From positions 620,001 through 684,000 of the forward strand of contig CANLQO010000001.1 in assembly GCA_947493335.1 (NCBI GenBank): a stretch of 64,000 bases of DNA, written 5' to 3'. The notes beneath the pieces are model-generated. The model did no database searches, was not told the DNA's origin, and saw nothing but the letters and a program-made list of their open reading frames with translations. The translations under genes and the position numbers were made by a program. Below are positions 53,918 through 63,900 of the stretch, one piece after another (position 1 is the first letter of the stretch; the number at the start of each line of letters is the position of its first letter). The DNA comes from an uncultured Paracoccaceae bacterium (GTDB lineage: Bacteria; Pseudomonadota; Alphaproteobacteria; Rhodobacterales; Rhodobacteraceae).

Positions 53918-54406
53918 TCAGGGGCGCAGCGCGCGTTTGAGGTCATCGTAAAGCGCCAGACGCTCTGCCTCATCCAGAAAACTGCCGATTTCCACCTCGC
54001 GGTCGCCGCCGCGCAGGGTGATGTAGTTCTTCACCGGTCCGCCGGTGGGGTGCAGATGCACGCTGACCCAATAGCGGTTCGCCTCCCAGTTCTGGGGGGG
54101 CGCTTTGGGGTTGTGGCGGACAAGCTGCGCGTGATCGGGGGTCACGGTCAGCTCTTCCAGCACCTCGCCCCGGCGGTAGCTGACGTTGATCGCGGTCCAA
54201 AGCCCGCCGATCATCAAGGCAAAGAACGGCAAGAGGCCCCACAGGATCAACGATCCAAGCACCACGATCAGTGGCAGGGCGACCAGCAGGCAGGTGGCCC
54301 CCATGAAAAGCACAAAGTCCCGGCGCAACAATGACCGGTAGGGCCAGAGCGATAGCTGCCAATGCGCGGCTTTTTCGGGGTGATCTGGGGTCCATTCGTA
54401 GGGCAT
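53918..54406 (-). CDS. DUF2244-family membrane protein
   Basis: This 162-residue protein has two adjacent membrane helices (about 30-72, FVLFMGATCLLVALPLIVVL then LILWGLLPFFALMIGGLWTA). They are flanked by an N-terminal hydrophilic start (WQLSLWPYRSLLRRDF) and a beta-rich cytosolic domain (VTPDHAQLVRHNPKAP, ANRYWVSVHLHP, EVEIGSFLDEAERLALYDDL). This is the pattern of the DUF2244 family, common near cytochrome oxidase genes in this group. Here ctaD is only 1.6 kb away. Function unknown. Confidence 0.85.
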   Translation of the reverse strand: MPYEWTPDHPEKAAHWQLSLWPYRSLLRRDFVLFMGATCLLVALPLIVVLGSLILWGLLPFFALMIGGLWTAINVSYRRGEVLEELTVTPDHAQLVRHNPKAPPQNWEANRYWVSVHLHPTGGPVKNYITLRGGDREVEIGSFLDEAERLALYDDLKRALRP

Positions 54407-54742
54407 GAAACAAGGTTACAACGCGGGCTGTGGCAGAGGCGATGTGCCCTAAAGTCGCGCAACAAAGCACGGCGCAATTGCGGCGGGAATCGGGCCACGC
54501 GATTCGCTGGTCTCGATCTCATCGTTTCCAATTTGGTCAAAATCCGGGCTTTTGCCGCTGATTTATGGCGATTTGAGGGCGAATTCAGGCGGTCTGGCCC
54601 CGGATTTGGCCAAATTGTGTTAAGAAAAGATAAAGATGCCTTGTTTTGAAGGCAGCACTCTTTTACAAATGATCCATGGGAAAGCTCTGCCTTTTATGTC
54701 GCGGAGATGGCCGAGTGATGTGTAAATAGGAGTTTGCGCGAA
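54407..54742. other. 336-base intergenic region before the VPLPA-CTERM gene
   Basis: No gene is visible on either strand. Its right half is AT-richer than the surroundings (about 54615-54720). It holds a short inverted repeat, TGCCTT (54637-54642) and AAGGCA (54649-54654), and AGGAG at 54729-54733 as the ribosome binding site for the next gene. The left part should hold the DUF2244 promoter. I see no clear -10/-35 pair. Confidence 0.5.
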
Positions 54743-55357
54743 ATGAATATGATTAAGAAATTTGCGATTGCCGCGACGATTGCAGCGGGTGCGCTTGCAA
54801 CATCCGTGAGCGCCGCACCAATTACCGCTGGCGGTTTCACCTACACACCGGATGGTGCGCCGTTTTCGCTTGAAGCTGCTGCTCTGGAGACAGACAGCGT
54901 AGCGGCTGTGTTGAACCCGGGTGGCCCGTTGTCAACGACGTTGGACCTGAACACCAACGTAAGTGGTGAGATGAACAATGGCACCGATCTGGATGGCGGC
55001 ACGATCTGGTTCCGGTTTGTGTCTTCCGTCGCTGGTCTGTTTGCTGTGAATACAAGCACAACAAATGACGCCAACAGCTACGAGGACCTTCGTATTTCTT
55101 GGTGCGCCGACGCTGATGCGTCAGGTTGCATTGGCGAGCTCGCGTTCATCGAAGAGCCTGTATCCGGCGTAAAAATGTCGACCTATTTTGCTGCTGCTGG
55201 CGAAGTTCAGTGGCTGGTTGCAACTTGGTCCGGTGTGACTGGGACGAACAACAACCTTGACTTCAAAGTGACGACGACTGTTCCAGTGCCTGCCGCTGGT
55301 CTGTTGTTGCTGGCCGGTCTGGGTGGTTTGGGTGCGATGAAGCGCCGCAAGGGCTAA
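54743..55357 (+). CDS. VPLPA-CTERM sorting-signal protein
   Basis: This 204-residue exported protein has a signal peptide (MNMIKKFAIAATIAAGALAT, cleavage near VSAA). The mature domain of about 150 residues is rich in Thr, Gly, Asn and Ala, with one cysteine pair (SWCADADASGCIG). The C-terminus is VPVPAAGLLLLAGLGGL followed by AMKRRKG. Motif, hydrophobic helix and basic cluster form a VPLPA-CTERM signal, which in Rhodobacteraceae directs proteins to an exosortase-type sorting enzyme. No such enzyme is in the window. It has its own terminator and an AT-rich leader, so it is a single-gene unit. Confidence 0.85.
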   Translation: MNMIKKFAIAATIAAGALATSVSAAPITAGGFTYTPDGAPFSLEAAALETDSVAAVLNPGGPLSTTLDLNTNVSGEMNNGTDLDGGTIWFRFVSSVAGLFAVNTSTTNDANSYEDLRISWCADADASGCIGELAFIEEPVSGVKMSTYFAAAGEVQWLVATWSGVTGTNNNLDFKVTTTVPVPAAGLLLLAGLGGLGAMKRRKG

Positions 55358-55418: not shown

Positions 55419-55949
55419 CTAGCTGGTCCTTTTGCTCTTGTGCCAGACCGAGTGCCCTAGGCACAGCAATAGTGCAACCAGTGCGACCCAGCAGATAAAG
55501 GTGACCCAGGCGGATGCGCTGATGGCCAGCGCCATGGCATCGGGGAAGTCGATGTAGCGGCGCGGTGGGGTCGCCCAAACGATCATGCGCGGTAGCATCT
55601 GGCCCAGCACCAACGACAGATGGAACAGCCAGAATAGTGCCAAGAGCAGGCGCGGGGCCGGAATGCCCAAGGCTCGCGCTTGCGCGAAATGGAGCAGGCC
55701 GAGCAGCCCCATCGCGCCAGCGATGGTCCAGGAGCCGTGAAACCCGGCCACCACATAGTAGGTGTCGTGGTCAGGCTGCAGCGCTTGAGCAGCCCCTGCA
55801 GAGAGCGCCCAAAGCTGCAAAGTTACGGGCAGAGCCAAAGCTGCATATGTCGCGGCGGCCACGGCAAAAAGGCCCCAGACGGGCAGACCTCGCCAACACG
55901 CAAGCGCAGGCAGGCCGATCAGCAATGCAGCGGACAACAGGAACGTCAT
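55419..55949 (-). CDS. Cytochrome oxidase subunit I-like half protein, 176 residues
   Basis: From the ATG at 55949 this protein has about five hydrophobic helices. Two stretches are plainly those of COX1: [19 protein letters not shown] (60-78), against [15 protein letters not shown] in the true ctaD next door, and PPRRYIDFPDAMALAI (128-143), against [15 protein letters not shown]. It therefore corresponds to the C-terminal half of subunit I, without the helices that bind Cu-B and the first haem a His. Of the two haem His in HFH, the first is Gly69 and only the second (His71) remains. It cannot be a working oxidase on its own. It lies past the ctaD terminator on the same strand with a poor ribosome binding site. 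Confidence 0.7.
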   Translation of the reverse strand: MTFLLSAALLIGLPALACWRGLPVWGLFAVAAATYAALALPVTLQLWALSAGAAQALQPDHDTYYVVAGFHGSWTIAGAMGLLGLLHFAQARALGIPAPRLLLALFWLFHLSLVLGQMLPRMIVWATPPRRYIDFPDAMALAISASAWVTFICWVALVALLLCLGHSVWHKSKRTS

Positions 55950-55962
55950 GTGCCGAGGTGAG

Positions 55963-55998
55963 CAAAAGAAAAGGCCCCGGTCAATCAACCGGGGCCTT
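55963..55998 (-). terminator. Intrinsic terminator after ctaD
   Basis: On the minus strand AAGGCCCCGGT (55998-55988) pairs perfectly with ACCGGGGCCTT (55981-55971), and TTTTCTTTTG follows (55970-55963 and on). It separates ctaD from the COX1-like half gene. Confidence 0.88.
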
Positions 55999-56020
55999 CT
56001 TTGATTACGGTGCCGAGAGG

Positions 56021-57691
56021 CTAGTGCGCGTGGGGCTTGTCCCAGTCGGACTGCTTTGGCAGCGTCTCGAACGTATGCTCTGGCGGTGGGGACGGCAGGG
56101 TCCATTCCAGCGTGTCGGCATATTCGTTCCACGGGTTCGGATCAGACACCCGGCGGCCATAGAACAGCGAATAGAAGATCACGCCGATGAAGAACACAAA
56201 GCTCGCGAACGACAGGAAGGCACCCCAGCTAGAGACATAGTTCCACAGGGCATAAGCCTCTGGGTAGTCGATGTAGCGGCGTGGCATGCCCTGACGGCCC
56301 AGGAAGTGCTGCGGGAAGAAGGTGATGTTGGCACCGATGAACATGGTCCAGAAGTGCAGCTTACCTGCCCATTCGGGGTACATGCGGCCTGACATCTTGG
56401 GGAAGTAGAAGTAGATCCCCGCGAAGATCGAGAAGACAGCACCCAGCGACATCACGTAGTGGAAGTGTGCCACGACGTAATAGGTGTCGTGATAGGCGCG
56501 GTCGACGCCGGCCTGTGACAGCACGATGCCGGTCACACCGCCCACGGTGAAGAGGAAGAGAAAGCCCATCGCCCAAAGCATCGGGGTCTTGAACTCCACC
56601 GAGCCACCCCACATCGTCGCGATCCAAGAGAAGATTTTCACGCCCGTGGGCACCGCGATGACCATGGTGGCCAGCATGAAGTAGGACTGCTGGGTCAGGG
56701 ACATGCCGACCGTGTACATGTGGTGCGCCCAGACGACGAAGCCCAGCACACCAATGGCGACCATCGCATAGACCATCGGCAGATAGCCAAAGATCGGCTT
56801 GCGGCTGAAGGTGGCGATGACGTGGCTGATGATGCCAAAGCCGGGGATGATGATGATGTAAACCTCGGGGTGGCCGAAGAACCACAGGATGTGCTGGTAA
56901 AGGATTGGGTCCCCACCGCCAGCCGGGTCAAAGAAGGTCGTGCCAAAGTTGCGGTCGGTCAGCAGCATGGTGATGGCACCGGCCAGCACCGGCAGGGCCA
57001 GAAGGATCAGCCAAGCGGTGACAAAGATCGACCATGAGAACAGCGGCACCTTGTGCAGGGTCATGCCCGGCGCGCGCATGTTCAGGAAGGTGGTGATCAT
57101 GTTGATCGCACCAAGGATCGAAGAGGCACCCGAGACGTGGACCGCAAAGATCGCGAGGTCCATGGACATCCCGCCCTCGGTGGTCGAGAGCGGTGGATAG
57201 AGCACCCAGCCAACGCCCGATCCCAGCTGCCCGTTGCCGCCCGGAGACAGCATGGAAGCCACGCCAAGCGCCGTGCCTGCCACGTACATCCAGAACGACA
57301 GGTTGTTCATGCGCGGGAAGGCCATATCGGGCGCGCCGATCTGCAAGGGCATGAAATAGTTGCCAAATCCGCCAAAGAGCGCCGGAATGACCACGAAGAA
57401 CATCATCAGGACGCCGTGATAGGTGATCATCACGTTCCACAGGTGTCCGTTGGGTGTGCAAACCTCACCGCTGGCGATGAAACGCGCGCCTTCGGCACAC
57501 ATGTACTGCACACCGGGGTGCATCAGTTCCAGCCGCATGTAGACGGTGAAGGCGACCGAGATGAACCCGACGGCGCCTGCGACGAAGAGGTACAGGATAC
57601 CAATGTCTTTGTGGTTGGTGGACATGAACCAGCGGGTAAAGAAGCCGCGGTTGTCTTCGTGCTCGTGGCCGTGGATGGCTGCGTCTGCCAT
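56021..57691 (-). CDS. ctaD: Cytochrome c oxidase subunit I (aa3 type)
   Basis: This 556-residue haem-copper oxidase subunit has 12 expected membrane helices. It shows [11 protein letters not shown] (haem a His), [17 protein letters not shown] (Cu-B His and cross-linked Tyr), [11 protein letters not shown] (Cu-B His pair), [14 protein letters not shown] (haem a3 and haem a His) and the C-terminal [20 protein letters not shown]. It reduces O2 to water and pumps protons in the respiratory chain. AAGGAG lies six bases before the ATG. Subunits II and III are not adjacent, which is common for this group. A strong terminator follows. Confidence 0.97.
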
Positions 57692-60974: not shown

Positions 60975-63900
60975 ATGGCCAATATCAGTGGCTCCAACAA
61001 CAACGACACGCTGGCGGGGACGTCGGGCGACGATACCATCGACGCGCGCAACGGGAACGATACTGTCAACGCCGGGTCCGGCAATGACACCGTCTATGGT
61101 GGCAGTGGCAGCGACACGCTGAATGGCGAAGGCGGCGATGATGAGCTGTTTGGCGGCGCGGGCTATGATTCCATGTATGGCGGCGCAGGCAATGACACCT
61201 TCTATGGTGACAGTGACACTTATGACGACATGTATGGCGGCGACGGCAATGACGTCATGTATGCGGGCGACGCCGACGACAACTGGCTTTACGGCGGCGC
61301 GGGCGAAGACACGATCTATGGCGGTACCGGATCAGAATCGATGGACGGCGGCAGCGGCAATGACATGCTGTATGCCGGTGCAGGGAATGACAGCGTCGTC
61401 GGGGGTGACGGCGATGACTATATGCAGGGTGAGCAAGGCGATGACACCCTTTATGGCGGCGACGGCGCTGACACCTTCGGTACGTCAAGCGGCGCAGGCA
61501 ACGATACGATCTACGGCGGGTCAGGTGGAAACGACCGCGACCGCATCCGTTTTGTCAGCAGCGATGATGTCACCGTCACCTTCACCGGTGACGAGCAGGG
61601 CACCTATAGCCAGAATGGCGGCACGGCCCAGGGCAGCTTTGAAGACATTGAAGAAATCGAAACCGGCGCTGGCAATGACACGATCAACATGGCCGCGTCC
61701 AACAGCAGTCAGACGGTCTATTCCGGCGCAGGTGACGACAGTATCACGGGCGGTGGCGGTGATGATCTTGTCTATGCGGGTGACGGCAGTGACAGCGTCA
61801 CCGGCGGCGGCGGCGCGGATCTGATCTATGGTGGTGCCGGGGCAGACACCCTGACCGGGGGCACCGGCAATGACACGCTTTACGGTGGTGATGGCGATGA
61901 CAGCCTGAGCGGCGAGGCCGGAGACGACGCGCTTTTTGGAGGCGAGGGCAGCGATCAGATTGATGGCGGCACCGGTAATGACACGATCGAGGGCGGGGCT
62001 GGAAACGACAGCATCACCGGTGGGAGCGGCAATGATACGATTGCTGGCGGAACCGGGCGCGACACGATCGACGGCGGCGATGGCGATGACGTCATTTACG
62101 GCGACGATGAAAGCGGTTCCTTTTCGGCGGGGACGCCTGAATCGCTGAATTGGACGACACAGGGTCCCGCAGGCACCGATCTGTCCGCTGGATTTGTGCA
62201 GGATACCGGCGACATGAATGTCGCGGTCAGCTTTACCAATGACGGTGGCAACACCGGGATCACCGTCACCGAGGACACGCAGTATACCGAAGGTGGCGAG
62301 CCCTATGCTACCAATTCCGGCCTTTACCTGACTGGCGGTGCGGGCCCCAACATGACGGCGGACTTCGTGTTCACCGCGGAAGGCGGGACCGGCCTGCCGG
62401 ACACGGTCGGCGATCTGACCTTCCGCCTGAACGATGTGGACCAGGGCAGCTGGCAGGATGTCGTCACGGTGAATGCCTATGATGTCGATGGCAACCTGAT
62501 CACGGTGACCCTGACACCGGAAGACCCGGCCAATGATACGGTCAGCGGAAACACGGTGACAGCCGGAAACACCTCTGAAACGCAAACGTCTGCTGCCGGT
62601 TCGATCCTTGTTTCGATTCCGGGGCCAGTCCACCGGTTCGAGATCATCTATGCCAATAACGGGACCGATGGGCAGGCGCTATGGGTCACGGACATGCACT
62701 TTGCCACGGCGGCGCAGGGCGATGGCGATTCCGTGCAGGGTGGTGCGGGCAACGACCAGATTTTCGGCGGCGGTGGCGACGATACGCTTGATGGCGGCAC
62801 CGGAAATGACACGCTGACCGGTGGCAGCGGCAATGACCAGCTAGATGGAGAGGCGGGCCGCGACACGGTCTACGGTGGCGACGGTGACGACACCCTTAAC
62901 TATGCCGTTGGCGGTGATGAGCTTTACGGCGGAGCGGGCGACGACAACGTGCGCGGCGGTTTCACCGCCGGTGCGGATGACGCCACCCTCTATGGCGGGG
63001 ATGGGAACGATAATCTTATCACCTATGGGGCCAATGACACGATCTATGGTGGCGCGGGCGATGACGTCATTGCGGCCGACAGCGGCGACGAATCCATTGA
63101 TGGCGGTTCTGGAAATGACGAAATCTACGCCGGTCATGGCAATGACACCGTTGAGGGCGGTGCCGGCAACGATACGATTTACGACAGCAGCGGAAACGAC
63201 ACGCTTTTTGGCGGTGACGGCAACGATTCCATCTATGGTGGCAGCGGCGATAACCTGATCGATGGCGGTCGCGGGGCCGACACGATCAATGCGGGCGCGG
63301 GCAACGACCAGATCTTCTTTTCCAACAACGACAGTGCTGACGGCGGAAGCGGGGATGATGAATTCCTGTTCTTCGACTATGCGCCCGGCGAAACCGGCGA
63401 CATCTCGCTTGACGGCGGTGACGGGTTCGACTCGCTGCAGCTTGGGTCGTCTGCCGATATGTCGACGCTGAACATCACCAGCGACGATGCGAACGGAAAA
63501 TCGGGCACGGTGCAGATGGACGACGGGTCCACGCTGACCTTTGCCCGGATGGAAAACATCGTTTGTTTTACCCCCGGTGCGCGCATCCTGACCCCGCATG
63601 GTGCCCGCCCGATTGAGACGCTGTCGGTTGGCGATCTGGTGCTGACCCGTGACCACGGGCTGCAGCCGATCCGCTGGATTCAGTCCAGCACCGTGCCAGC
63701 CGTCGGACGTCTGGCCCCGATCCGCATCCGCCCGGGCGTTGTGACAGGACAGGCGGTGGACCTGCTGGTGTCACCACAGCACCGCATGCTGTTTCAGGGC
63801 TATCGCGCGGAGCTGTTGTTTGGTCAGTCAGAGGTGCTTGTCGCGGCGAAGCATCTGATCGACCAAAAGCGCGTGACCCGCGAAGAGGGTGGGGAAGTGA

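Follow-up and report, generated by a model that had tools for sequence, protein, structure and literature searches.

A small stand-alone relative of helices 8-12 of cytochrome c oxidase subunit I with patchy presence in Rhodobacterales

Introduction

What is the function of a protein that resembles only a part of cytochrome c oxidase subunit I (COX1, CtaD) and is encoded directly behind a complete gene for this subunit? This question is raised by a locus within a 64,000-nt stretch of DNA, which is referred to as the window. The features of this locus are as follows.

53918..54406, minus strand: DUF2244 membrane protein (PF10003, 135.6 bits)
54734..55357, plus strand: putative secreted protein with a PEP-CTERM-like C-terminal signal (17.2 bits against a cut-off of 20.7), convergent with the small gene
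55419..55949, minus strand: small COX1-like protein gene (176 aa, five helices), a stand-alone relative of COX1 helices 8-12
55969..56000, minus strand: terminator-like hairpin from a scan (stem of 14 pairs followed by a T-rich tail), in the gap that separates the small gene from ctaD
56021..57691, minus strand: ctaD, full-length aa3-type cytochrome c oxidase subunit I (556 aa; PF00115, 511.7 bits)

A 2022 review describes how bacterial oxidase biosynthesis factors originated in evolution as an enigma, and partial duplication of genes is named there as a possible route (PMC9145763). The family to which the small protein belongs is a concrete candidate for this route, by which a piece of subunit I would have become a protein of its own that is under selection and apparently mobile. 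The small protein is also a means to study what the P-side half of COX1 can do on its own.

The small gene and its relationship to CtaD

The small gene starts with ATG, 71 bp behind the ctaD stop codon, and the open reading frame at 55419-55949 (minus strand) codes for 176 residues with no internal stop codon. An assembly error is unlikely, as the gene is located within a 2.05-Mb contig and is free of frameshifts. In a single BLASTP comparison with the adjacent CtaD, 31 of 117 positions were identical (E 3e-11). The aligned region includes the HDTYYVVA and PRRYID stretches, which the first-pass annotation had correctly described as common to the two proteins.

A profile built from 11 copies of the family was searched against PDB. 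Profile positions 5-170 of 177 matched residues 349-520 of R. sphaeroides CtaD (E 8e-25), which correspond to COX1 helices 8-12. This similarity is significant and spans nearly the whole length, and by this measure the window protein is a homologue of COX1 helices 8-12. It had been described as the C-terminal half of subunit I; the match covers five helices out of twelve, or roughly one third of CtaD.

The likeness to CtaD/COX1 (PF00115, TIGR02891) thus consists of helices 8-12, the HDTYYVV and PRRYID stretches and the profile match, while the small protein differs by the absence of helices 1-7, an extra histidine (His110) and a shorter link between helices 8 and 9. With helices 1-7 absent, the protein presumably has no CuB ligands, no second haem a ligand and no proton channels. 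A catalytic CtaD subunit has twelve helices and a CuB site, as opposed to the 176 aa and five predicted helices of the window protein. In split mitochondrial Cox1, a separately encoded C-terminal piece completes the split enzyme. The likeness is that a C-terminal COX1 piece is a protein of its own; the window small gene is different in that it adjoins a full ctaD.

No match of the window protein to the Pfam COX1 model (PF00115, gathering cut-off 34.8 bits) was found up to E 10, and it scores 24.9 bits on the NCBIfam CtaD model (TIGR02891) against a curated cut-off of 670.75. By Pfam scores, its relatives are nearer to COX1. Among the 11 family members scanned, eight match PF00115 at E<=0.1 and ten match TIGR02891 at the same threshold (best E 1.3e-14). 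The PF00115 cut-off is passed by six of the seven relatives that were scored (37.2-47.9 bits), with the copy from genome G054 below it (26.8 bits). The first-pass annotation knew of no named family for such a protein. This holds: many copies match the general COX1 model, and no model in Pfam, NCBIfam, PHROGs or PADLOC names them. A description of such a protein family was not found in the literature within open-licence PMC.

CtaM (DUF420), an oxidase biosynthesis protein with four or five helices, is comparable in being small, polytopic and not widely distributed, and in the sections cited here it is said to be absent from R. sphaeroides and P. denitrificans (PMC9145763). Four Pfam families were matched by the 11 scanned members at E<=0.1, and DUF420 is not among them (0/11).

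Distribution of the family

A search for stand-alone homologues of similar length had been proposed as a check. Such homologues exist: 20 stand-alone copies of 157-220 aa were collected, one of which is the open piece of a broken gene. All copies with organism names are from Rhodobacterales.

In a family sample of 394 genomes (393 genera), at least 14 are carriers. This is a lower bound, since full ctaD matches fill the lists, only some of the candidates per genome were scored and the closer look covered 13 genomes. Copies are open in the window genome, G331, G211, G300, G246, G054, G289, G171, G305 and, very divergent, G264. They are broken or partial in G226 (TAG), G128 (two TAA), G077 (in-frame TAG) and G341 (94-aa frame). 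A search of 390 genomes of the order, which overlaps with the family sample, adds G655, G696 and G772. Within individual genera the gene is rare. It is present in one of six genomes of the window's genus (the window genome alone), in one of 20 genomes of a second genus and in four of 56 genomes of a third one (G772, G794, G798, G820). Each of the 14 carriers in the family sample has at least one further COX1-type match, as do most of the non-carriers.

Named records comprise Pseudaestuariivita rosea H15 and a Pseudophaeobacter MAG (apparently identical to G226 and G300) as well as a Neomegalonema MAG. Plasmid copies were found in Tateyamaria omphalii (one record) and in Pseudosulfitobacter pseudonitzschiae (44 records, 43 of them at 90-95% identity and one at 80-90%). 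Two family members on roseobacter plasmids, WP_076630965.1 and WP_037930134.1 (195 aa), are annotated as "cbb3-type cytochrome c oxidase subunit I". They belong to the same family, yet this name does not fit a 195-aa protein of five-helix size, and the misleading database name is corrected here.

Several searches delimit this distribution. Among 362 alphaproteobacterial genomes (some from the window's own family), all listed matches with E<=1e-18, the window copy aside, are in frames of at least 532 aa; divergent short copies below the E limit, or beyond the at most nine candidates scored per genome, would be missed. A pattern scan of a genome-contig collection returned no close relatives, and a plasmid search with the window protein as query returned nothing. 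No further small copies turned up in the genus of G246 (2 genomes) or in that of G331 (4 genomes, of which three are 60-63% complete). A search of 340 relatives gave no new small copies among the matches listed, which full ctaD dominated. In five sister species, no relics were detected by tblastn and profile search. Phage carriage was found neither in a phage collection nor by a peptide-pattern scan of viral contigs. For 11 of the 20 copies, PADLOC and PHROGs gave nothing better than E 0.01 (best E 0.015 and 0.023), and identity with a defence or phage family was dropped on these values.

The small copies thus form an unnamed family with patchy presence in Rhodobacterales. Sporadic presence implies that the gene is dispensable for aa3 assembly, which speaks against an essential assembly role. 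The first-pass annotation had suggested assembly, haem delivery or inhibition by mimicry as possible roles.

Genomic setting

Small copies are linked to ctaD in the window and in G246, G054, G289, G171, G305 and G264, as well as in G077, where the copy has an in-frame TAG. G077 apart, the gap between ctaD and the small gene is 68-90 bp in these seven linked copies. In all seven gaps that were read (folds, inspected by eye), a GC-rich hairpin with a short run of T is located just ahead of the start of the small gene. A sigma70-like promoter was not found for the window small gene, where only 0.2 would be expected by chance. In G054, G264 and G289, the gene immediately behind the small gene is of the DUF2244 type. 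It begins one base before the end of the small gene in G054 and 9 bp after it in G264.

The other 14 copies have no ctaD in the stretch that was read, which extended over 5-24 kb rather than over whole replicons. These dispersed copies are from G331, G211, G300, G226, G128, G696, G772, G655, G798, G820, G794, the two plasmids and the Neomegalonema contig. All 13 that were measured have a lower GC content than their locus (e.g., 0.52 vs 0.64 and 0.49 vs 0.58). The plasmid copies have 0.52 in surroundings of 0.65, and the difference is minimal for G331 (0.466 vs 0.475). The six ctaD-linked copies that were measured are within 0.07 of their own loci. Related copies with 49-90% amino acid identity (G696, G798, G820 and the plasmids) occur in several genera and at different loci. 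Low GC content and the occurrence of relatives in several genera, at several loci and on plasmids indicate that the dispersed copies have moved horizontally.

The surroundings of the two plasmid copies were also noted. On plasmid P8 of Pseudosulfitobacter pseudonitzschiae (L167), the copy is near a two-component system and genes whose annotations are CHAT-domain, caspase-family and trypsin-like proteins. The copy on the Tateyamaria omphalii plasmid (L166) sits among polysaccharide genes.

In the sister species of the window genome (L044-L048), filler DNA of about 240-400 bp is located between the same two terminators in place of the small gene. It is alike only in L044 and L048 (by eye) and has no trace of the small gene. 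All six genomes of the genus carry the PEP-CTERM-like gene in the interval from ctaD to the DUF2244 gene. The parts of its product that were compared are very different from one species to another, while its 3' end and the terminator are 77-91% alike at the DNA level.

Conserved residues

Three features of the window copy are discussed in this section.

55752..55769, minus strand: HDTYYV motif (residues 61-66), aligned with CtaD H411-D412-T-Y-Y-V, ahead of helix 10
55620..55622, minus strand: His110, specific to the family, in the helix equivalent to COX1 helix 11
55548..55565, minus strand: PRRYID motif (residues 129-134), aligned with CtaD P480-R481-R482-Y483

In the PDB-chain alignment numbering of R. 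sphaeroides CtaD, H61 corresponds to H411, D62 to D412, G69 to H419, H71 to H421, R130 to R481 and R131 to R482. We take H419 to be the haem a3 ligand and H421 to be a haem a ligand. Residue counts refer to 19 copies, with the very divergent G264 left out; this copy has neither the motifs nor His110.

Conservation is high in the first motif (D62 in 16/19, T63 in 14/19, Y64 in 18/19, Y65 in 16/19, V66 in 15/19) and, in the second, is highest for P129 (17/19) and Y132 (16/19), with R130 in 11 and R131 in 14 of the 19 copies. F106 and W107 are each present in 17/19. Some copies have incomplete P-side motifs, with PRRY missing in G246 and G211 and the Asp missing in G289. In a published analysis, H411, D412, R481 and R482 are listed, together with subunit II residues, in a single water cluster on the P side that includes the Mg site and the haem propionates (PMC12901375).

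According to the first-pass annotation, the haem a3 histidine is lost (Gly69) and the haem a histidine is kept (His71). This is correct for the window copy. It was dropped as a family hallmark once more copies had been collected, since the histidine at the H419 position is kept in five and that at the H421 position in nine of the 19 copies. The contrast thus belongs to the window copy and some others. Only the two plasmid copies have both histidines, in which they differ from the window copy.

His110 is present in 16 of the 19 copies (absent in G211, G246 and G289). At this position, Phe is found in all 17 aligned COX1 rows. When all 76 COX1 segments were considered, one pattern gave Phe in 57 of them and was unmatched in 19. 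The copies from G171, G305 and G054 carry His110 even though they are otherwise nearer to COX1. His110 is the strongest single argument for a common origin of the small copies, and it is also the best candidate for a gained function.

Selection

For the window copy and ten relatives, identity is 0.36-0.50 at codon positions 1 and 2, compared with 0.26-0.36 at position 3, where it is near the expectation from composition (0.25-0.34) and thus saturated. Against G331, the identities at the three positions are 0.46/0.49/0.31, while composition predicts 0.25/0.29/0.25. As the codon comparison rests on a protein alignment, positions 1 and 2 are somewhat favoured in these values. Among five closer dispersed copies, dN/dS is 0.13-0.30 in the 10 pairs (Nei-Gojobori, own script); the least saturated pair has a dN of 0.047 and a dS of 0.161. 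A dN/dS calculation had been proposed as a check on decay, and these values, obtained for copies other than that of the window, are not near one.

These patterns show, at the level of coding sequence, purifying selection on the family. No close relative of the window copy was found in its genus (6 genomes) or by the pattern scan of genome contigs. Its own dN/dS is thus unmeasurable, and we infer that it is presently under constraint. The first-pass annotation had argued for selection rather than decay; this is borne out for the family and is probable for the window copy.

Predicted structure

From an alignment of 11 sequences, AlphaFold2 predicted a model with a mean pLDDT of 86.8 and a pTM of 0.81. 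Helices are predicted for residues 2-19, 24-53, 69-93, 99-126 and 136-175. In a Foldseek search against PDB, this model had no match at E<=0.001. Among the best 50 of 114 rows, the first haem-copper oxidase is a ba3 chain at rank 32 (TMq 0.41). As a control, helices 8-12 of the window CtaD were modelled with 15 relatives (pLDDT 76.5), and this model matched COX1 (E 2e-15, TMq 0.74). As the control was matched and the small protein was not, its helices may be packed otherwise than in COX1, an indication that is weak with 11 sequences in the alignment.

With hand-set loop boundaries in the window copy, the segments predicted to be inside carry one, two and three Lys/Arg and no acidic residues. 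The outside loop between helices 9 and 10 has no Lys/Arg and two acidic residues, and that between helices 11 and 12 has three Lys/Arg and two acidic residues. An N-out/C-in orientation would in part fit these charges.

Origin and function

A tree places 11 small rows on one side of a branch (100/98) and 32 COX1 segments on the other, with very long branches and a bootstrap that had not fully settled. For eight small copies, the ctaD of the same genome was included, and none of the eight groups with it. On a subfamily profile built without it, the window copy scores 93.3 bits, while the best of 76 COX1 segments reaches 72.3. Leave-one-out profiles are also passed by G211 (124.4 vs 78.9 for COX1) and G289 (81.0 vs 77.2), while G246 fails (58.2 vs 80.6 for the best COX1 segment). 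We infer a single origin by partial duplication.

It is unlikely that the copies instead go back to several events in which a 3' part of ctaD was duplicated in tandem, each independently, and are alike only by their descent from COX1. Such an event would leave the copy directly behind ctaD, and the ctaD-linked copies from G171, G305 and G054 indeed score higher with COX1 segments than with other small copies; G264, lacking motifs and His110, would also be compatible with a separate event. However, these same three copies have His110 like the dispersed group, a residue that is absent from the aligned COX1s, and the tree separates small copies from COX1, including their own ctaD, although the long branches may force this grouping. 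A decaying or neutral partial duplicate that is open by chance is very improbable. In its favour, copies are visibly broken in G226, G128, G077 and G341, and close sister species have neither the gene nor recognisable remains. Against this stand the many open copies of similar length, their family-specific residues, the saturation of third positions with conservation of first and second ones, and the low dN/dS. For the family as a whole, the codon-position pattern and dN/dS largely refute decay.

Concerning function, we tentatively favour a partial ctaD duplicate which has turned into an accessory factor for the aa3 oxidase, as one selected family. It would be non-essential and act on the oxidase as a modulator of assembly or activity. 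According to this proposal, ctaD helices 8-12 were duplicated in Rhodobacterales, became a separate gene and gave rise to an independent family of small membrane proteins, some of which have stayed behind ctaD, the window copy among them. The five helices would be oriented N-out/C-in, like COX1 helices 8-12, and the DTYY and PRRY loops would face the periplasm. In COX1, these loops belong to the region of the Mg site, the haem propionates and subunit II, and the small protein might dock there on subunit II or on a subunit I intermediate. Where the gene is behind ctaD, it may be expressed at a low level through read-through of the ctaD terminator. Counting against a role in the oxidase are the patchy distribution, the many sites away from ctaD, the incomplete motifs in some copies, the unmatched fold, the terminator between ctaD and the small gene and the profile score of G246 below that of the best COX1 segment.

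The main rival, which we consider only slightly less probable, is a COX1 fragment repurposed as a mobile single-gene membrane protein outside the oxidase, with a function in stress, defence or small-molecule processes. It would have spread via plasmids and AT-rich singletons, and the ctaD-linked copies would mark only its birthplace. This is what would be expected from the 14 copies for which no ctaD lies in the stretch read, including two on plasmids that differ in gene content, from the reduced GC content of all 13 dispersed copies measured and from the related copies across genera, with the gene absent from 19/20 and 52/56 genomes in two of these. The predicted fold, unmatched to COX1 when the control was matched, points in the same direction. 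On the other hand, few stretches of the family are as well conserved as the DTYY and PRRY loops, which would be odd for a wholly unrelated function. Linkage to ctaD is found in eight lineages, and the PADLOC and PHROGs scans of 11 copies favour no defence or phage function.

The proposed accessory function could be extended to include mobility. In this rather unlikely scenario, a horizontally traded derivative of COX1 helices 8-12 with 170-200 aa docks on the aa3 oxidase of the host, or on subunit II of that enzyme, with an effect on assembly, haem loading or activity. His110 might be a haem or metal ligand, and a conditional advantage would explain repeated gain and loss.

Other observations

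At about 61002-63698 of the window (plus strand), RTX calcium-binding nonapeptide repeats (PF00353) are matched at least 20 times in an open frame, and the beginning of a Hint_2 domain comes after them. The ORF list for this region consists mostly of shifted-frame and antisense ORFs. At locus L049 (G014:C3:2363000-2379000), a second ctaD consists of two frames, of 393 and 301 aa, that overlap, and a full-length frame is present elsewhere in that genome.
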